A stretch of 48,238 nt of DNA, from NCBI GenBank assembly GCA_030620155.1, contig JAUXFF010000004.1, positions 1 to 48,238 on the forward strand, given 5' to 3'. The DNA is from Candidatus Cloacimonadota bacterium. Its GTDB lineage: Bacteria; Cloacimonadota; Cloacimonadia; Cloacimonadales; TCS61. Below, one piece after another: positions 14,574 through 30,359 of the stretch. Position numbers and translations under genes: made by a program. Below the pieces are notes generated by a model, which made no database searches, was not told the origin of the DNA, and was given only the letters and a program-made list of their open reading frames with translations. Numbering within the stretch: the first letter of the stretch is position 1; each line of letters begins with the position of its first letter.

Positions 14574-15835
14574 AAAACGGAGGTATAAAGATGAAAAACA
14601 AATTAATTTTACCAATTATTTGTACGGTTATAATTTTAACCCTACTGTTTTTCGGGTGTGGCGAACATTATGATGATGATTATGAACCCATCTACCAGGA
14701 CGCCATCTACATTATGGATGCAGACGGAAGTAACAAACAGAAAGTTATTGATGTGGACGGATGTTGCAATGTGCAATTTGTCCCTGATTCTGATAAGCTG
14801 CTTTATATGCTTAGAAGAACAGATGGAACTAATACAGGAAGCTTATATACTGTAAATACTGACGGATCAGAGATTACACAAATTAGTGGTGAATTAAAAA
14901 TAAAACGAGATTTACCATCAATATCTGATGATGGAAGCAAAATTGTACTTTGGGCTTTCGATGATTCTCGTGACTATACCTATGATCTATATATGGTTGA
15001 CCCAATTGGTTCAGGAATAACAAATTTAACAATAACAGCTAATGTAAGTGAAAAAGATGCTACTTTTATCCAATATCAAGACCAGGAATATCTGCTATAT
15101 GTTACATATTTTAACGAGAATGAAATAAACTACAGTACAATTAGTATGATGAATACAACAACTTTTGAAATCGATACACTTTATGTAAGGGAAATTGAGG
15201 GTGATCATGGTTTCAAAAAACCTATCTACGATTGGGTCAATGATATCCTATTCACAATTTATGACTATTATTCTGTTTTTGAATATAATTCTCTTGAAAA
15301 TGGGAATAATACCTTTGTATCATATTGTGGTTTAAGCACAATGGATTTATCAATTATGTATAATCAATTACTTTTTCACTATAATACAATAATTAAATAT
15401 GACTATTCCTTAAATCAAACTAATGAATTAGTAGATGGTTATAGGTATCAAATATTTCAAGATACAGTAATTTTTTGTACAAGTTCTCAAAGTAACAATG
15501 GTGATATATATTCAATTAAACTGGATGGTTCTGATAATACAATGCTATCAGAAAATGGATTTTATCCAAGATTTTCGAAAGATGGTACCCGGATAGTTTA
15601 TATCGGGAAATATGAAATTAATCCAAGAAGAAGAAATTTAATAACAAATTAAGGAGATAAAAATGAAGAAAAATGTTTTAATTTTAATTGCAGTTATAAC
15701 TTACTCAGTGAACTTATTTGCTCAAATTGGAACCCATATCCCATCAACTCGTTTACCTGCTTATGAGCAATCCTGGTGGGATTCAACTGAGATGGTTTTA
15801 CCTTGGCAAAATGCCGGTTGTTTAAAGCAAATTGA
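14574..15835 (+). repeat. Tandem duplication unit 1 (lipoprotein gene plus truncated exoprotein 5' end)
   Basis: 'aaaacggaggtataaagatgaaaaacaaattaattttacc' and downstream segments repeated at 15904; homology ends at the exoprotein 'PWQNAGCL'. Confidence 0.85.
14591..15652 (+). CDS. Lipoprotein with TolB/PD40-like beta-propeller repeats (paralog 1)
   Basis: Lipobox LLFFGC; 'DAIYIMDADGSNKQKVIDVDG', 'SLYTVNTDGSEITQISGE', 'FYPRFSKDGTRIVYI'. Confidence 0.75.
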   Translation: MKNKLILPIICTVIILTLLFFGCGEHYDDDYEPIYQDAIYIMDADGSNKQKVIDVDGCCNVQFVPDSDKLLYMLRRTDGTNTGSLYTVNTDGSEITQISGELKIKRDLPSISDDGSKIVLWAFDDSRDYTYDLYMVDPIGSGITNLTITANVSEKDATFIQYQDQEYLLYVTYFNENEINYSTISMMNTTTFEIDTLYVREIEGDHGFKKPIYDWVNDILFTIYDYYSVFEYNSLENGNNTFVSYCGLSTMDLSIMYNQLLFHYNTIIKYDYSLNQTNELVDGYRYQIFQDTVIFCTSSQSNNGDIYSIKLDGSDNTMLSENGFYPRFSKDGTRIVYIGKYEINPRRRNLITN

Positions 15836-15905: not shown

Positions 15906-17121
15906 AACGGAGGTATAAAGATGAAAAACAAATTAATTTTACCAATAATTTGTATGATAATAATTTTAATCCTACTATTTTTCGGGTGTGGCGAACATTA
16001 TGAGGATGAATATGAACCCATCTACCAGGACGCCATCTACATTATGGATGCAGACGGAAGTAACAAGCAGAAAGTGATAGATGTGGATAATTGCGACAAT
16101 GTGCAGTTTATTCCAAATTCCGACAAAATTCTATATCTTGCTGATAATAGCCTTTACACAGTGAATATTGATGGGACTGAGAATGTTAAGATTAGTGGGG
16201 AATTGGATGTGATTGATAAAGTCAAACCAAGTATCTCCTATAATGGTGAATATATTGCTTTTAATGTACAGGAAAGAAATAATAGAGAAGTATATAATAT
16301 TGATGTGTCTAACTGTATTATTACAAATATCTCAAATACTGTTTTCTTTGATGAATTTTATCCTAAATTTTCAAAAACTGAAGATTGTCTTTGCTATTCA
16401 TCAAATAGTAATGAGTTAAATATGATAATAAATTTTAATGTTGAAAATTTGGAAAAAGACACACTATATACTACAAATAATTTTTTAGGTGATGTATGCT
16501 ACTCAATTGATTCTGAATGTATATATTTCACTCAACGTACAAGCAGATCGTTAGCTATTTTAAAAAAAGTAGAAATAGCAACCCAAATAACAGAGGATAT
16601 TGCTGAAAATATTAACACCTTGAATGGTGGATATTTTGATGTGAATGAAGATTACTTCGTTTTGTTGCAGTTTTCCCCTAATGTTTGGGTTGCTAATTCT
16701 CTAGAGACTGAAGAGACTGTTATTATTGGTGATGTCTTTTATCCTTTCTTGTCAATGTTTAATTCAGTTTTATTTTCAGATGAATTTGATTCTTCTGGAG
16801 ATATTTATATTTTTATTTTAATATCCGAAGACACTGAAAAACTTACTGGTGGTAAGTCACCAATTTTCTCACAAGATTGTGAATCAATTGTTTATATTAG
16901 CAGATATATTACAAATCCCAAAAGTAAAAATCTAATAACAAATTAAGGAAAAAAGTGAAATGAAAAAGAATATTTTAGTTTTATTGGTAGTTATAATTTA
17001 CACGGCAAGTTTATTTGCCCAAATTGGAACAAATATTCCATCAACTCGTTTACCTGCTTATGAGCAATCCTGGTTGGATTCTACTGAGATGGTTTTACCA
17101 TGGCAAAATGCAGGTTGTTTA
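15904..17121 (+). repeat. Tandem duplication unit 2 (homologous part)
   Basis: Homologous to 14574-15835 with strong conservation at both ends and a divergent middle. Confidence 0.8.
15921..16946 (+). CDS. Lipoprotein with TolB/PD40-like beta-propeller repeats (paralog 2)
   Basis: First ~55 aa nearly identical to the 14591 product; 'DAIYIMDADGSNKQKVIDVDNCDNVQFIP'; same C-terminal '.NLITN'. Confidence 0.75.
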   Translation: MKNKLILPIICMIIILILLFFGCGEHYEDEYEPIYQDAIYIMDADGSNKQKVIDVDNCDNVQFIPNSDKILYLADNSLYTVNIDGTENVKISGELDVIDKVKPSISYNGEYIAFNVQERNNREVYNIDVSNCIITNISNTVFFDEFYPKFSKTEDCLCYSSNSNELNMIINFNVENLEKDTLYTTNNFLGDVCYSIDSECIYFTQRTSRSLAILKKVEIATQITEDIAENINTLNGGYFDVNEDYFVLLQFSPNVWVANSLETEETVIIGDVFYPFLSMFNSVLFSDEFDSSGDIYIFILISEDTEKLTGGKSPIFSQDCESIVYISRYITNPKSKNLITN

Positions 17122-20657: not shown

Positions 20658-20878
20658 AACCAGATTTGGATTTTATCCCATTGGTTTTTAATTTGATGTT
20701 AAAACTTTTTTGGCTTTTTTACTCTTCTGCCTGTTTTTTTGTCAATACTTAAATAATTCTTCGATTATATCGGAAGGAATAATGGAAGCTGGTTTTCTGA
20801 TCTCAGCTAATTTTTCAGCGGTTTTACCAAGTAAATAGGAGGCAGATGCAGCTGAATCTTTAAAGGACATTCCCTGAC
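20658..20878. repeat. Direct repeat matching 11151-11372 (3' end of intact nnr and flank)
   Basis: About 15 differences (including one 1-nt indel) over ~222 bp by eye; both copies same orientation. Confidence 0.9.
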
Positions 20879-22247
20879 CTGAAAACGAAATAATAATTCC
20901 TGCTAAAACATCCCCGCTACCTCCAGTGGAAAGTCCGTCATTACCGGAAATATCGAATATCAGTTCCTTCCCATCTGAAAAGACGGTTGTTGCACTTTTC
21001 AGAAGAACTGAAGATTTATATTTTTGATTAAATTCTTCCAGTTCTTTTACCGGATCATTAATAATGTCTTTTATACTCTTTTTAATCAACCGGGCAAACT
21101 CACCAATATGAGGAGTTAACAATCTACCGGAAATAAAATTAAGCATAGCTTGATTTTCAGCTAAAATATTTATAGCATCTGCATCCAGAATAAGTGATTT
21201 ACCCCAATTTCTTAAAATTTTTTCCAGGAGATTTTTCATTTTTTCGGAAGTTCCGATTCCAGGTCCGATTAAAATTGCATCCAGTTCAGAAAGTGTTTGA
21301 CTGAATTGTTCAAAATCAATATTACCTGAACTATCTTCAGGTACAGAGTGGGTCATTACTTCCAGAAGCTGGGTTTCAAAGATAGTTTCCATACCTTTGG
21401 GATGATAAAGTTTAATCAATCCTGCACCTGCTCTTAAGGCAGAGCGGCAAGCCATAATTGCTGCGCCCGAAAAACCGGATGAGCCGGCAATAATGCCTAT
21501 CTTCCCGTAATCTCCCTTATGGCTGAACAAAGATCTTTCAGGGTAGAGAACATTCTTTTCCGTAATTAACCTTGCTTTAGGAGGAAATTTCTTATACGTC
21601 TTTTCCGGTATTCCTATATCAATAACAATAGTTTTTCCACTATTTTCTCTTCCTTTCCCCAGAAAATGACCATATTTAAATGCTGCCATTGTAAGTGTAT
21701 AATCAGCTTTTACGGCAATTTCAGCGCGTCCGGTATTTGCGTCGGTTCCGCTAGAGATATCAACTGAAACAACTGTTTTTCGGATTTTATTGATATCTTT
21801 TACTAAGTCTATTAGCCAACCCTGCATAACACCTTTAAAGCCAACACCAAAAATTGCATCAACTATCAGATCAAATTCAACCAGATTAACATCTAGATCT
21901 TTCCATATATTAAAATCTTCTACATAATGAATTGTAATACTCAATCTCTTACACTTATTAAAATTTTCTAAGGTTTCAGGGCTCATTTTATCTGTGTTTC
22001 CAACTAAAAAAATAACAGGAACATAATTCCAATTTCTCAGATACCTCGCAATGACGAAACCATCTCCACCATTATTCCCACTGCCACAGAACAGTGCGAC
22101 TTTATTTCCGGTTAACAGTATCTTTTTTTGAATAAATTCGCTACAGCCCCTACCTGCTTTTTCCATTAATTCCTTACCGGGAATACCGATTTTCTCAATT
22201 GTATATTTATCCAGAAAGTACATTTCTTCACGTGATAATACAAACAT
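20742..22247 (-). CDS. nnr: Bifunctional NAD(P)H-hydrate epimerase/dehydratase
   Basis: 'GSGNNGGDGFVIARYL', 'VDAIFGVGFKG', 'IGIIAGSSGFSGAAIMACRSALRAGAGLIKL', 'LTPHIGEFARL', 'GNDGLSTGGSGDVLAGII'. Confidence 0.95.
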   Translation of the reverse strand: MFVLSREEMYFLDKYTIEKIGIPGKELMEKAGRGCSEFIQKKILLTGNKVALFCGSGNNGGDGFVIARYLRNWNYVPVIFLVGNTDKMSPETLENFNKCKRLSITIHYVEDFNIWKDLDVNLVEFDLIVDAIFGVGFKGVMQGWLIDLVKDINKIRKTVVSVDISSGTDANTGRAEIAVKADYTLTMAAFKYGHFLGKGRENSGKTIVIDIGIPEKTYKKFPPKARLITEKNVLYPERSLFSHKGDYGKIGIIAGSSGFSGAAIMACRSALRAGAGLIKLYHPKGMETIFETQLLEVMTHSVPEDSSGNIDFEQFSQTLSELDAILIGPGIGTSEKMKNLLEKILRNWGKSLILDADAINILAENQAMLNFISGRLLTPHIGEFARLIKKSIKDIINDPVKELEEFNQKYKSSVLLKSATTVFSDGKELIFDISGNDGLSTGGSGDVLAGIIISFSGQGMSFKDSAASASYLLGKTAEKLAEIRKPASIIPSDIIEELFKY

Positions 22248-23480
22248 TTAAACCTCCGGCAATATAATTTCGAATGTGGTACCCATATTAATTTCGCTTT
22301 CCGATACTCTTATTTTCCCATGATGATATTCTTCTATAATACGTTTTACTAAGCTTAGTCCTAAACCCCAACCTCTTTCTTTATTGGTGATTCCGGGATA
22401 AAATATTCGCTTAAACATTGATTTGGGAATACCTAAACCATCATCCTTGACCTGTATATAGGTTTGACCTTTATAGCTGAAAGCTGAAATCACAATCTCT
22501 CCGTTATTATTTTTCATTGAATCCAGACTATTTTTTATCAGGTTTTCTAAACTCCATTTAATCAAATCGGGATCAATATTTATTTTTTTCCCTTCTATTT
22601 TACTTACAAAGCTTAATTTTATTTTTTGGGAATAGCTTGGGATCCTGCGGTTGAAGTAATCTAAGGTCTCCTGTATAATATTATGTAAATCCGTAGGTTG
22701 ATGGGTAATGGAAGAACCAACTTTCCCGAATCGAGAAGCTATTTTATTCAATCTTTGTATATCTGTCTTCATATAATTTAACATCTTAGCCACTTCAGAA
22801 TTATCATCTTTAATCTTCATTTCCAACAAATCACGCCAACCCATTAAAGAGGATAATGGAGACCCGAACTGGTGAGCTGTCTCTTTTGCTAATCCCACCC
22901 AGACCATATTTTCTTCATTCCTTTTTATACTTCTCCAGACATTAAATCCCAGTAAAATAAAAACAAAAACCAAAATCATCTCAAAATAAGGCATCATTCT
23001 CAATTGTTTCATTGTCTTTGATTCACCAAAATAGACATAACTTATAATTCTATCTGACTCAACATTATATTTTAAAGGAATAACTGCTTTTTGAGACTCA
23101 TACTTTTTTATCTTTTTCAAAATGACTTTCTGCTGTTTGGAGTCCAGTTCGGAAAAGCTTTTTTTCTCAACTTTAATATTTTCCCAGGAATATGGAATTT
23201 TTAAGCTATCTGCAAGGATAATAGGATATTCAATACCGGGAAATATTTCTGTCATAAAATATTCAAATAAAAAAGATTCCAGGTTTACGTCTGCTGGTAA
23301 CCCTATAAATTTTGAATAAAGGTCCGGTACAATTTGAACATCTTTCTTAATATTTCTCATGAGTGAATTCGTATAAAGAACAATAAAAAGTATTATTAAA
23401 AAGGCTCCTGCAGTAAAATATAATTTCAGGAAAATATTTTTCTTAAAATTCATTTTTCTTCGCGATATTCCATATTTCAT
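22248..23480 (-). CDS. Membrane-bound sensor histidine kinase (probable start ~23453, MNFKKNIFLK)
   Basis: TM segments; H-box 'LAKETAHQFGSPLSSLMGWRDLLEM'; N/G boxes 'NLIKNSLDSMKNNNGEI', 'VKDDGLGIPKSMFKRIF', 'ERGWGLGLSLVKRIIEEYH'. Confidence 0.88.
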   Translation of the reverse strand: MKYGISRRKMNFKKNIFLKLYFTAGAFLIILFIVLYTNSLMRNIKKDVQIVPDLYSKFIGLPADVNLESFLFEYFMTEIFPGIEYPIILADSLKIPYSWENIKVEKKSFSELDSKQQKVILKKIKKYESQKAVIPLKYNVESDRIISYVYFGESKTMKQLRMMPYFEMILVFVFILLGFNVWRSIKRNEENMVWVGLAKETAHQFGSPLSSLMGWRDLLEMKIKDDNSEVAKMLNYMKTDIQRLNKIASRFGKVGSSITHQPTDLHNIIQETLDYFNRRIPSYSQKIKLSFVSKIEGKKINIDPDLIKWSLENLIKNSLDSMKNNNGEIVISAFSYKGQTYIQVKDDGLGIPKSMFKRIFYPGITNKERGWGLGLSLVKRIIEEYHHGKIRVSESEINMGTTFEIILPEV

Positions 23481-24219
23481 CTAATTTCTCCAAGTCACTT
23501 TCATGAATATTTTTATCATTTTTGTTATGGTGTTCTTCGATTTTCTTAAACCGGGTTTCAAATTTTTTTATTGTTCTCCTAAGAGATGTTTCAGCATCGA
23601 AACCCAGTTTCCTGGCGACATTTACAATTGAAAAGATAATATCACCTATCTCATTAATCATTTCACTTTTATCACCATTTTCAAAAGCTGATTTAAATTC
23701 CTCTACTTCTTCTTCAAATTTTTCAAATGCAGGTTCCACGCTAGGCCAGTCAAACCCGACTGATGCTGCCTTTTCCTGCATTCTCTGAGCCACGATCAGT
23801 GCTGGCATTGATGGGGGAATACCATCTATTATAGATTTTCTGGTTTGTTTCTTTTCTTGATGCTTTATCCTCTCCCAATTCATTTTAACATCCACAGCAT
23901 CTTTAGCTCTGGCATTTCCAAAAACATGAGGATGTCTTCTAATGAGCTTATTATTAATATTATCAAGAACATCCTTCAGGGTAAATTTTTTTTCTTCTTT
24001 TGCCATTTGCACCTGCATTAAAATATGAAGAAGAAGATCACCCAATTCTTCCAACAAATGTTTATAATTTCCATTTTCAATTGCTTCTATTGACTCATAA
24101 AGTTCTTCTATAAAATTGGGTATCAAAGATTGATGTGTCTGCTTAATATCCCAAGGGCAACCATCTTCCGGATCACGAAGCTTTTTAATGATCTCTACTA
24201 ATTTTTCAAACTCTTTCAC
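23443..24219 (-). CDS. mazG: Nucleoside triphosphate pyrophosphohydrolase MazG
   Basis: 'LRDPEDGCPWDIKQTHQSLIPNFIEELYESIEAIE', 'LEELGDLLLHILMQVQMA', 'RRHPHVFG'. Confidence 0.95.
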   Translation of the reverse strand: MKEFEKLVEIIKKLRDPEDGCPWDIKQTHQSLIPNFIEELYESIEAIENGNYKHLLEELGDLLLHILMQVQMAKEEKKFTLKDVLDNINNKLIRRHPHVFGNARAKDAVDVKMNWERIKHQEKKQTRKSIIDGIPPSMPALIVAQRMQEKAASVGFDWPSVEPAFEKFEEEVEEFKSAFENGDKSEMINEIGDIIFSIVNVARKLGFDAETSLRRTIKKFETRFKKIEEHHNKNDKNIHESDLEKLDEIWNIAKKNEF

Positions 24220-24235
24220 AATATCTCCATTTAAC

Positions 24236-25171
24236 TTAATTTATTTCTTCTGGGTTAGAAATTATCTCCCCTTCATCCTGTTTAAGGTCTGTCTCCATTT
24301 CCCATTTTCTTCTTATCTTCCTATTAATAAATTTTTTCCTGATCCATGCAATCATAAGAACCAGAGGTAATATTCCCCAAATTATTCCAGTTGAGGCAAG
24401 TAAAATTTCTATTTTGAAATGACTTTTACAATATTCTTCAAATAATTTTGAAAAACCTTGTGGAGTAAATAAAAAACTTTTCAGGAAAATCTTATTAAAA
24501 TCCCTTGATGGTAAGGCATTATCCCATAGTTTATAAAATTCCTTTTCCCTTTTAGTGAATAGATATTTAACTGCCATTGCTGACTTTGCATAAAAAGATT
24601 CCCATTCAATCCTATTTCCCGGATATCTATATTTCATTTGTTCAAGGCTTAAAGAATTTCCTAATATATAATTTTTTATAAAATTAAATTCTCTATCTAA
24701 ACTCAGATCATTTGAAAAATAAACTGCCATACCTTCATTGAACCAAAGAGGTGGATTTTTCCAATAAAACCAGACAAAGTGGTGTATATATTCATGTAGC
24801 AAAATTTTCCGTAACTTAACAAAGCTTCTGTGTTCTGTCGGTTCTTTAATATAAATGGTTTTATTTCTTCTACTGTAAAATGCCTGGCTAAATTCAATTA
24901 TATCTGATTTCGTATTTGCTTTTGTAAGGTAATCCTCTTCATCACAAGCAATAACAATTTTTACTGGCAGATCAGGGTAATTACCAATTTTTCGTTGAAA
25001 AAAATCAATATCAAAAATCATTTCATCTATGATTTTCTGTGCAAATTTAAGGTCTTTTTTATCCGCAGTTATACTGATGTTTCCTGAAGTAATGGTCTGG
25101 GTTTCAGTATTTGCATAAAGTAAGTTAAATAAAAGCAAAAAAATAATAAGGAAAAATTTATTAAAATTCAT
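24236..25171 (-). CDS. Peptidase MA-like (M1/M61-type gluzincin) membrane-anchored protein
   Basis: 'LLHEYIHHFVWFYWKNPPLWFNEGMAVYFS' = HExxH plus downstream E; signal peptide and C-terminal TM. Confidence 0.8.
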   Translation of the reverse strand: MNFNKFFLIIFLLLFNLLYANTETQTITSGNISITADKKDLKFAQKIIDEMIFDIDFFQRKIGNYPDLPVKIVIACDEEDYLTKANTKSDIIEFSQAFYSRRNKTIYIKEPTEHRSFVKLRKILLHEYIHHFVWFYWKNPPLWFNEGMAVYFSNDLSLDREFNFIKNYILGNSLSLEQMKYRYPGNRIEWESFYAKSAMAVKYLFTKREKEFYKLWDNALPSRDFNKIFLKSFLFTPQGFSKLFEEYCKSHFKIEILLASTGIIWGILPLVLMIAWIRKKFINRKIRRKWEMETDLKQDEGEIISNPEEIN

Positions 25172-25567
25172 CTAACAATCATTATCAGCAGATATCCTCT
25201 TTCGTATTAAATCAATAAGTTTTTGGATTTCAAAAGGTTTAAAAATAATATCATGCAGGCCAGCTTTTTTGGATTTTACGACCACATGGCTGGGGTCATA
25301 CCCGAAGCCGGTCATCATTATAATGGGAAGGTTTTCATTTAATTCCCTAGTTCGGGAATAAAGTTCGTAGCCATCCATATCCGGCATAGCGATATCGGTT
25401 AGCAGTAGATCGATATCCCCCCTCATTATCCTGTTTAAACCTTCATAACCTGAATTTTTACAGGTAACCTGGAAATCTTTGCAATTGTCTTCCAATTCCA
25501 TTTTTAAATAATCAGTAACTTCAATCTCATCATCAACTATAAGTATCTTCTTCTGCATTAATTTCAC
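25172..25567 (-). CDS. Single-domain response regulator (CheY-like receiver)
   Basis: 'KILIVDDEIEVTDYL', 'DIDLLLTDIAMPDMDGYELY', 'PIIMMTG', 'IIFKPFE'. Confidence 0.92.
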   Translation of the reverse strand: MKLMQKKILIVDDEIEVTDYLKMELEDNCKDFQVTCKNSGYEGLNRIMRGDIDLLLTDIAMPDMDGYELYSRTRELNENLPIIMMTGFGYDPSHVVVKSKKAGLHDIIFKPFEIQKLIDLIRKRISADNDC

Positions 25568-25574
25568 TCCGAAT

Positions 25575-26561
25575 TTATTTAAATTTACTCTTTATTTTTG
25601 AAAATGACTCCAAATAAATATTATTGAATTTTTGTGAATATTTTTTTTTAAGATGATTATAAATTATCCAACTCTCTCCTAATTGATTCTTATTTATTGC
25701 CAGGAGTTCATTTTCCCTGTATTCAGGAGTTTGATATCCAAAATAATAAAATTCTTTACCTTTACTCATTTTTACAATAACACCCTTTTTGATCGAATAT
25801 TTAACTCCTTTTTCTTCATACTCCAGGGTTAAATTTTTCACTATATGAAGAAATTTCAGAACCTTGTAATACTTTTCTATCAGTTTCTTTTGTAATTTCA
25901 GAATTTCAGTTTTCTCAAATTCTAAATCATCATATAATTCCTCGTAAGTTCTGCTTAGCTGACTTAGAATTTTTTCGTCTTCATGCAAAAAGGAATTCAA
26001 AATAAGCTCTGTTATTTCCCGGGAATCTTTCAAACAGTAACCTAGACATCTCTTTGTTTTATAGCGATCACATGGGAAATTCTCTTCTTCGCAAACAGGC
26101 ATTTGAAAAAGCTCACCCATTGTTGCAATATAATCATACAGAAAAAAACGGTCAATGAATGGTCCTAAATAGTAAAGATCTTCCAGGGTATCATTTGTTA
26201 TATTAAAGTAGGGAACTTTATGGAAATTTATTCCAAGATACACATAATCCTCATAATCTCTGATAAGATTATTATATTCGGGGTTTTCTTTGTTTATCAT
26301 CTTTTTTTCGTTAACTAAAGCTTCAAAAAAAGAAAAGGTTTCCAGCCAGGAAATAGTTTTGGTTAATGACATCATCTGAAATACATTTTTATCCTCAATA
26401 TTCTCAATTAGGAAATTCTTAATGGTCTTACGCAGGTTAGAGGCTTTTCTAATAAATAGGATTTCTTCAGGTTTAGAAAAACAAAAAATTCCCTTGCTAT
26501 TAGGAATTTGTTCTAAGTTTTTAATTACCGCCTGTTTAGAAACTTCGATCATAAGACTCAA
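25575..26561 (-). CDS. UvrC N-terminal-like (degenerate GIY-YIG) protein without the RNase H-like C-terminal half
   Basis: 'NSKGIFCFSKPEEILFIRKASNLRKTIKNFL' / 'FEALVNEKKMINKENPEYNNLIRDYEDYVYLGI' / 'YYLGPFIDR' / 'CDRYKTKRCLGYCL' follow UvrC order. Confidence 0.65.
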   Translation of the reverse strand: MSLMIEVSKQAVIKNLEQIPNSKGIFCFSKPEEILFIRKASNLRKTIKNFLIENIEDKNVFQMMSLTKTISWLETFSFFEALVNEKKMINKENPEYNNLIRDYEDYVYLGINFHKVPYFNITNDTLEDLYYLGPFIDRFFLYDYIATMGELFQMPVCEEENFPCDRYKTKRCLGYCLKDSREITELILNSFLHEDEKILSQLSRTYEELYDDLEFEKTEILKLQKKLIEKYYKVLKFLHIVKNLTLEYEEKGVKYSIKKGVIVKMSKGKEFYYFGYQTPEYRENELLAINKNQLGESWIIYNHLKKKYSQKFNNIYLESFSKIKSKFK

Positions 26562-26633: not shown

Positions 26634-26657
26634 CACAAAGACGCAAAGACACAAAGG
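26634..26657. repeat. Three tandem 8-mers cacaaaga/cgcaaaga/cacaaagg
   Basis: Read directly in the intergenic region upstream of mfd. Confidence 0.8.
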
Positions 26658-26954: not shown

Positions 26955-29900
26955 ATGATTTATGATCAAATTAAATCTTTTTTAGATAAATCAAAATTCA
27001 TTCGTACGTTCGATTCAGTAATAAGTGAAAAAAAATCTAGAACTTTTTTTTATAACCTGAATCGGTCTGCAAAATCAATGTTACTCGCAAGAGCATTTGA
27101 AAAAACCGGCAAAAATATAATTTTTATCACAGCTGATGATAAAGTGGCTGAAGATTATATAGAAGATTTTGAACTTCTGGTTGGTAGTGATAACTCATAT
27201 TTTCTTCCTGACTATGAGGTTCTGCCTTATGAAGAGAGATCTCCGCACTATGTGATCAGAGCTCAGAGGATAGAGACATTAACCCGTGCAGTTATTAAAA
27301 AACCTGCAATTTTCAGTGTTTCATTACGTTCTTTCCTCAGAAAAATAGTACACCCGGATATTTTCGGGAAAAATATTATTACCATAAAAAAGAACTCTGA
27401 ATATAATCCTGAACTATTAGTTTCTAACCTTATAGGAATGGGATATGAAAATGAATTCCAGATATCAAAAATAGGAGATGTTGCCAGAAGGGGTGGCATT
27501 ATTGATGTATTCAGTCCTAATACCTCAAAACCTGTTAGAATAGAATTTTTCGGAGATGAAATTGAATCTTTACGATTATTCACTATCAATTCTCAATGTT
27601 CTACCGGGGAGGAATTAGAAGAAATTACTCTACTTCCATCCCGCGAATTTTCCTTACATAACATTGATACCACTGATAAATTATGGGAGAAAATCCATAA
27701 AGATGGGTTTTATGAAGGCATAGAGCTTGATGTATTTTTACTTTTGCCGAAAACAGGAACCTTCTTTGATTATTTTGATACTGATAATCATTTAATTTTC
27801 TGGGACGAATATCATTTTTTTTCTTCTTATATTAAAGAAATATTTGAAGAAACAACCGATCTATGGCAAAAAACCGGAATTAAAAATAAGAAGAGACTTA
27901 TCTCCCATCCTGATGATATTTTCGAGAATAATTTATATATAAAAAAAATTACAAAGACCACAAATAATTATTTTCTTTCATCCTCATATCAAAATTTTCC
28001 ATATATCATCCAAAAAATTGAGAGTACAATCTCTTCACAAAAGAATATGCATGGGGAACTAGAAATCCTGGAAGAAGAACTGAGAAATAAATTAAATAAG
28101 GGATACAAAATATTTATTCAGTCTGATAATCGCAGTCAAAGTAAACGTATGCGGGATCTACTTCCGCAATTTGAAGAGCAAATTGATTTTACTATAGGAG
28201 TATTTCAAAAAGGATTTAATGTAATTGATTCAAAGCTGGCGATTTATACAGATCATGAAATATTCAGCAGGTAAAAACGAAAAAGGCGTCAAGCAAGATT
28301 TTCCAAAGATGAAGCCTTAGTTGATTATGACTCTTTAAAACCCGGAGATTATATTGTACATATAGATCATGGCATAGGAATATATGGCGGTTTAAAAAAA
28401 ATTACTATAACTGGTAATGTAATTGAATGTTTAACTTTGAATTATGCTGATAATGATACAGTATATATACCAACTTATCAACTTTCTCTGGTATCAAAAT
28501 ATATTTCACAAAATGGAATAACACCTGTTATTCACAAACTTGGTGGTAACCGCTGGATTCAAACCAAGAAACGCGCCAAGAAGCAGATTGAGATGATTGC
28601 TAAAGATCTGGTTAAACTGTATGCTGAAAGAATAATAAGAAAAGGAATTGCTTTTGACACCGATTAAAATTGGCAAAGGGAAATGGAAGATTCCTTCATC
28701 TATGAAGATACTCCAGACCAGATTACAGCAATAAATGAAATCAAAGATGATATGGAGAGAGATATTCCCATGGAACGACTCCTCTGCGGAGATGTAGGAT
28801 TTGGGAAAACCGAAGTGGGAATTAGAGCTGCTTTCAAGGCTGTAGTAAGTGGTTGGCAAGTAGCATTCCTGGCACCAACAACCTTGTTGGTCGAGCAACA
28901 TTATCTTGTAATCCGGGAAAGATTAGCCCAATATCCTGTAGAAATTTCAATGTTTAGCCGTTTTCGTTCAAGAACAGAATTAAAGAAAGATGTAGAGAAA
29001 CTCAATAATGGTGAAATAGACATTGCAATTGGAACACATAGATTGCTTTCTAAAGATATAATGTTCAAGCGATTAGGTTTATTAATCATAGATGAAGAAC
29101 ATCGTTTTGGTGTTCAGCATAAAGAAAAGTTACGTAAACTTAAGTCGAATGTAGATACACTTTATATGTCAGCCACTCCTATTCCCAGAACAATGTATAT
29201 GGCATTATCCAAGCTAAAAGAACTTTCTTTAATCCGCACATCTCCGAAAGCAAGATTGCCCATACGAACAGTTACTGTTCCTTATGATAAAGAAATAATA
29301 AAAGATGCTATTAATAGAGAAATTGATCGTGGTGGTCAGGTTTTCTTTGTTCACAACAGGGTAGAGACAATCGAAAGTATTGCTTCTGAATTAAGGGCTT
29401 TGTTACCTCGAATAAGTTTTAAGGTCGGTCATGGACAACTTCCGGAAAAGCAGTTAGAGTCAATAACCTTAGATTTTGCACATCACAGATTTGACGTTCT
29501 TATTGCAACCACTATAATAGAGTCAGGTATTGATATTCCAAATGTAAACACTATTATTATAAACAGGGCAGATACTTTCGGATTAGCACAATTGTATCAA
29601 ATCCGTGGAAGAGCAGGCAGGAGCAACAGGAGAGCTTATGCTTATTTGATAATACCTTCAAAGCTAACTGAAGAAGCCCGTAAAAGATTAGAAACGCTGA
29701 CTGAGTATGAATCCCTTGGGAGCGGATATCAAATCGCCATACGTGATATGGAAATACGAGGGGTTGGTTCTCTCCTTGGTACAAGACAAAGCGGTATTAT
29801 TCATACAATTGGGTTCAATTATTACAATAGATTACTTGATCAAACCATAAAGAATATCCAGGAACAGAAAACCGGAGAGGATATTCAAGAAGACAAGGTC

Positions 29901-30359
29901 AAAATTCAGCGGTTACAAATTGAAAGCGATTTCTATTTCCCTGAATCCTACATAACCAATGAAAAAGAAAGATTAAATATTTATCGTAAAATGCTAAATT
30001 TCAAAAAAGAAGAAGAATTCATAACTCTCGAAAATGAACTTTATGATCGTTTTGGAAAAATACCGGAGCAAGCTTTAAATGCAATTATCTTCTATAAGCT
30101 TAACATGCTCGTACAAAAAGCAGAATTAGAATCTTTCAGTATTAAAAAGGGAGAAGCAATTCTCGAATTGAACAATAGCAAATTACCAGCCCGTGAAAAA
30201 ATTAATGAACTGGTTAACACCTTTAATTATCCTGTAAAATTCGACAGTACGGGAAACCTTAAAATAACATTTTCAATTTTTAGGGAAAAAATCTTCAATA
30301 AGAGGGTCCTTTACGAAAAAAGCTTAAAAATTATCCGCTTCTTTCTTAATGAAAAATAA
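26955..30359 (+). pseudogene. mfd: Transcription-repair coupling factor Mfd interrupted by in-frame TAA at 28272-28274 and 28665-28667
   Basis: Three same-frame ORFs (26955, 28437, 28683 all 0 mod 3) give contiguous Mfd sequence: '...YTDHEIFSR*KRKRRQARFSKDEALVDYDSLKPGDYIVHIDHGIGIYGGL...GIAFDTD*NWQREMEDSFIYEDTPDQ...LLCGDVGFGKTEVG...IIDEEHRFGVQHKE'. Confidence 0.92.

Follow-up and report, generated by a model that had tools for sequence, protein, structure and literature searches.

Among the GIY-YIG proteins of the UvrC/Cho type, the Cho-like subfamily was described as having a C4-UvrBb C-terminus and no EndoV domain (Dunin-Horkawicz 2006, PMC1564403). In T. maritima UvrC, 3' incision was abolished when the second Tyr was changed. 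In H. pylori, Tyr-to-Phe changes combined with a mutation of the RNase H site resulted in UV sensitivity, and UvrC was also found to have a non-catalytic role in microimports (PMC9426483). The [4Fe4S] cluster of the UvrC loop contributes to DNA binding (Silva 2020, as cited in PMC9426483). Here, we analyzed a short relative of these proteins encoded in a stretch of 48,238 nucleotides (the window), contig 15 of a Candidatus Cloacimonadota genome of 2.5 Mb that was 92.7% complete, and compared it with 71 orthologs, which are referred to as the clade.

The gene was found at the coordinates given in the preliminary description (Table 1). Its TTG codon at 26561 was probably a false start, because the orthologs start at the equivalent of the ATG at 26552, which gives a protein of 325 aa. 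The window protein matched the NCBIfam UvrC model TIGR00194 with an E-value of 1.4e-26, and its best NCBIfam match was PRK07883 (DEDD exonuclease-UvrC, 1.4e-27); both matches covered approximately residues 14-233, corresponding to the UvrC-like part of PRK07883. Profile comparison with the UvrC N-domain in the PDB gave 2e-11, and the homology of the window protein to UvrC is beyond chance. The PRK07883 family presumably has an intact active site, and the window protein differs from it in that the exonuclease domain is absent. The Pfam GIY-YIG model did not match the window copy, which we ascribed to a limit of sensitivity. A viral fold library yielded only generic, weak GIY-YIG matches, and searches of plasmids and phages yielded only ordinary UvrC-type regions. 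We also observed a stand-alone Cho-like GIY-YIG protein on an Enterococcus raffinosus plasmid (Bacillota; L176 2049-2963), seemingly without the Cys loop, which could represent a further branch of short UvrC relatives.

Table 1. Positions of the gene, its domains and residues, and the linked genes in the window.
Feature	Coordinates	Strand	Remarks
UvrC/Cho-like putative pseudo-nuclease gene	25575..26561	(-)	328 aa if started at TTG; 325 aa from the probable start, ATG 26552
GIY-YIG fold domain, eroded active site	26253..26510	(-)	residues 18-103; alignment and fold match 1yd2/1ycz
Active-site substitutions, UvrC numbering		(-)	Y19F 26484-26486, Y29F 26454-26456, G31R 26448-26450, R39T 26424-26426, Y43F 26412-26414
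Catalytic residues retained		(-)	E76 at 26307-26309, N88 at 26271-26273
Four-cysteine loop C157, C164, C172, C176	26034..26093	(-)	motif in 65/71 orthologs
UvrB-binding-type helical hairpin	25836..25976	(-)	residues 196-242; invariant Phe215 at 25917-25919
C-terminal domain of four strands followed by two helices	25578..25829	(-)	invariant E285, nearly invariant E296, YRxNExLA motif
Stand-alone receiver (response regulator)	25172..25567	(-)	co-oriented, 7 bp downstream of the pseudo-nuclease gene; order-wide linkage
Remaining conserved string: metallopeptidase-like, MazG, histidine kinase, NAD(P)H-hydrate epimerase/dehydratase	20742..25171	(-)	

An AlphaFold model of the window protein, built from 18 sequences, showed a pLDDT of 91.5 and a pTM of 0.88. 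Foldseek revealed that the N-terminal part of this model was highly similar to the GIY-YIG domain of T. maritima UvrC (1yd2/1ycz; TM 0.88, 1.6 Å, 2e-5), and the predicted structure thus has the GIY-YIG alpha/beta fold with the catalytic Tyr and Arg missing, as the preliminary description had expected. Beyond this domain, C157, C164, C172 and C176 aligned with C154, C166, C174 and C178 of E. coli UvrC, providing the four Cys ligands of a UvrC-type [4Fe4S] loop and hence a putative cluster site. Additionally, Phe215 aligned with F223 of E. coli UvrC, a residue that presumably matters for UvrB binding. The window protein stops approximately 85 aa past the hairpin, and its C-terminal residues, approximately 80 in number, form a small beta/alpha domain of their own that is common to the intact Cho-like proteins. 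We considered this domain as a truncated RNase H domain and dropped the idea, as it aligned with the Cho-like C-terminus. The RNase H-like half had been reported as absent, and indeed neither the Pfam RNase H nor the HhH models matched the window protein; both domains are present in a full-length uvrC of the same genome (L054), which lies outside the studied locus, and the genome also encodes uvrB.

To place this architecture, we aligned the clade profile using hhalign. The alignment with three intact Cho-like proteins of the order spanned 301 columns with an E-value of 1e-27, and that with UvrC, which was supplied up to residue 255, spanned 229 columns and reached the hairpin. The earlier designation as a UvrC N-terminal half therefore holds for the homology, but the layout is really Cho-like: a GIY-YIG fold, four conserved Cys, a UvrB-binding hairpin and a C-terminal domain, with no EndoV. 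Domain order and length are the same in the clade and the Cho-like subfamily; the clade, however, has lost the catalytic residues, forms a separate group in the tree and has a different gene neighbourhood. The intact Cho-like genes, which were found in three genomes of the order (L051 1885-2817, L052 1958-2929 and L053 2171-3139), lie near a calcineurin-like phosphoesterase gene, and a GAF-type gene adjoins the one in L051, with a similar ORF in L053. E. coli Cho resembles the clade protein as a stand-alone GIY-YIG protein with a four-Cys region, but it is an active 3' nuclease with another C-terminal domain. The clade protein shares with UvrC the GIY-YIG fold, the four-Cys loop and the Phe of the UvrB-binding hairpin; in contrast to UvrC, it contains no RNase H or HhH domain, has an eroded site, has lost its basic charge and occurs in addition to a canonical uvrC.

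The catalytic residues Y19, Y29, R39, E76 and N88 correspond to the GIY Tyr, the YIG Tyr, the central Arg and the Glu of GIY-YIG nucleases and to an additional Asn of the UvrC lineage. At these sites the residues of the window protein are F, F, T, E and N, so that two of the five are left. The motifs were as first described, with GIF at residues 24-26 and the eroded second motif, LFIRKASNLRKT, at residues 35-46, and the alignment with UvrC confirmed the Y-to-F, G-to-R and R-to-T substitutions. PDB entries 1yd2, 1yd4, 1yd3 and 1yd5 are the UvrC mutants Y19F, Y29F, Y43F and N88A, respectively; the sites of the Tyr mutants match those changed here, and the window protein is therefore a natural triple Tyr-to-Phe version. 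The full catalytic five was found in none of the 71 orthologs, most of which hold one or two of these residues and one of which holds four, whereas it was present in all UvrC (17/17) and all intact Cho-like proteins (3/3) of the phylum. The erosion is common to the whole clade and the window copy is no outlier. Because its active site is lost, unlike that of the three Cho-like proteins of the order, we filed the window protein as a catalytically degenerate Cho-like relative and not as a Cho-like nuclease.

Clade members were present in 62 of the 64 genomes of the order with at least 90% completeness, as counted by hand from the table of the phylum-wide search. No members were seen outside the order in this search or in a pattern-seeded scan, in which the named related loci almost all belonged to Candidatus Cloacimonadota; in the remaining genomes of the class, all matches were of the UvrC type, and almost every one lay in a frame of approximately 600 aa. 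In the tree, the clade was monophyletic with a support of 100/100, apart from UvrC and the Cho-like proteins, and did not group with E. coli-type Cho. The YVYL and YLGPF core, G260, E285 and E296 were invariant or nearly so, Phe215 was kept in all 71 orthologs, and the conserved positions of the GIY-YIG part were P20, L35, K86 and P94. The gene is under purifying selection, with dN/dS values of 0.06-0.23 in 14 close pairs and constraint extending to the GIY-YIG part. The mean column entropy of this part was 2.56 bits in the clade versus 1.10 bits in UvrC, an indicative comparison as the taxon samples differ. The faster evolution of the clade is consistent with a released catalytic constraint and a retained fold, and it may also reflect a new function.

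Computation thus establishes that the predicted fold is kept, that no clade member retains the full catalytic set, that selection is purifying and that a receiver gene is linked. We consider it probable, albeit with considerable reserve, that the clade is an order-wide pseudo-nuclease of Cho-like UvrC-family origin that acts as a non-cutting adaptor or modulator on partner proteins. The preliminary description had likewise proposed a non-nucleolytic UvrC-like paralog, and the fold, the separate full-length uvrC and the clade-wide erosion support this proposal. Such a protein would be unable to make the 3' incision and would dock on its partners through the four-Cys loop, the Phe-centred hairpin of the UvrB-binding type and the C-terminal domain; UvrB or a UvrB/UvrC complex would be the most likely ligand, and the protein would tune nucleotide excision repair or another, related response to damage. 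H. pylori UvrC provides a precedent for a UvrC function that needs no catalytic sites, although the protein there is a full, active UvrC and in the clade the loss of catalysis is fixed in a separate paralog. We found neither a catalytically dead UvrC/Cho family nor a paper on UvrC in Cloacimonadota treating this gene in the literature searched. Dead paralogs of enzymes often reveal regulation, and a dead UvrC-like protein found order-wide beside a functional UvrC would demonstrate that the UvrC scaffold can serve in a role other than cutting. The clade could also supply a natural separation-of-function UvrC, complementing the non-catalytic role in H. pylori.

The gene had been described as lying upstream of a response regulator, and the directly downstream gene indeed encodes a receiver only. 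In 70 of the 71 loci, which represent approximately 11 families, a receiver gene on the same strand lay immediately downstream or was separated by a single gene, usually purC, and gene ends often overlapped. This linkage, the histidine kinase within the same gene string in family f1 and the weakened UVR and DNA-binding features would fit a protein that has left DNA repair and acts mainly in signalling together with the adjacent receiver. We regard this as unlikely, though worth serious consideration: outside f1, where purC stands between the two genes, purC and other housekeeping genes are as tightly linked, so that plain operon conservation may be involved, and the Cys loop and Phe hairpin persist as UvrC-type features. 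The string containing the metallopeptidase-like gene, MazG, the histidine kinase and the NAD(P)H-hydrate repair gene was found in f1, and such linkage can arise from common expression as housekeeping genes without any joint function. For the adaptor or modulator proposed above, the adjacent receiver protein would be co-expressed and might exert control. More specifically, the clade protein could bind UvrB or UvrC and so regulate excision repair, with the phosphorylated stand-alone receiver in turn controlling the clade protein; this extension is doubtful, but if true it would connect two-component signalling directly with nucleotide excision repair. In E. coli K-12 (L174 875-3360), uvrC directly follows the response regulator gene uvrY; the parallel is probably a coincidence, since the window receiver contains no output domain.

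The net charge also differed markedly from that of UvrC. The mean net charges of the GIY-YIG, 104-155 and C4 regions were +0.1, -2.3 and -1.9 in the clade versus +4.5, +6.8 and +4.4 in UvrC. DNA had been named together with a repair partner as a possible ligand; as the strong positive charge of UvrC is gone from all of these regions, DNA is not favoured and protein-protein contacts are, and a repair partner is more likely. The alignment of the four Cys with those of E. coli UvrC, and the part of the UvrC cluster in DNA binding, would agree with a non-cutting, DNA-binding Fe-S protein that serves to mark or sense damage. We judge this improbable, because the charge near the loop is negative to neutral and the Cys set is missing from six orthologs. 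UvrB binding may have been lost too, judging from the weakened UVR motif: the Arg-Asp of the UvrC consensus is gone from the hairpin of the clade, and the Pfam UVR model matched one of 24 members with an E-value of 0.08. This weakening, the six orthologs without the four-Cys motif, the possible housekeeping basis of the linkage and the faster evolution speak against the adaptor or modulator reading.

It is quite improbable that the clade proteins are still nucleases, for 3' incision or otherwise, acting through a rearranged GIY-YIG site. The fold is intact, the window copy still has E76 and N88, and some orthologs keep Y29 or R39; however, R39 is Arg in only 25 of the 71 orthologs (otherwise S, K, T, Y, F, A, L and others), E76 is Glu in 19 and N88 is often Gln, the GIY-YIG part contains no substitute invariant catalytic set, and the basic charge is gone. 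A decaying pseudogene or uvrC relic, which the missing active-site residues and the broken adjoining mfd in this MAG might suggest, is extremely improbable and already contradicted by the selection signal, as the ORF is intact in essentially all orthologs, non-catalytic residues are invariant and the gene is retained in 62 of the 64 near-complete genomes of the order.

As first described, mfd is a divergent neighbour and is disrupted, but the adjacency is confined to part of family f1, and we rejected it as a functional clue on this ground; the disruption is confined to this MAG among the relatives compared, in which mfd is intact. The gene (26955-30359, plus strand) spans 1134 codons in one frame, which is interrupted by premature TAA codons at 28272-28274 and 28665-28667; the former position is invariant in 13 relatives. 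No second mfd copy was found in this MAG, and the broken copy may be a recent pseudogene, a strain mixture or an assembly error. Reassignment of TAA was rejected, as 22 of the 29 confident genes in the window end in TAA. We also found a short CACAAAGACRCAAAG tandem repeat at 26634-26656, between the putative pseudo-nuclease gene and mfd. Elsewhere in the window, two adjacent paralogous lipoprotein-like genes (14591-15652 and 15921-16946) have nearly identical N-termini and are likely a tandem duplication.
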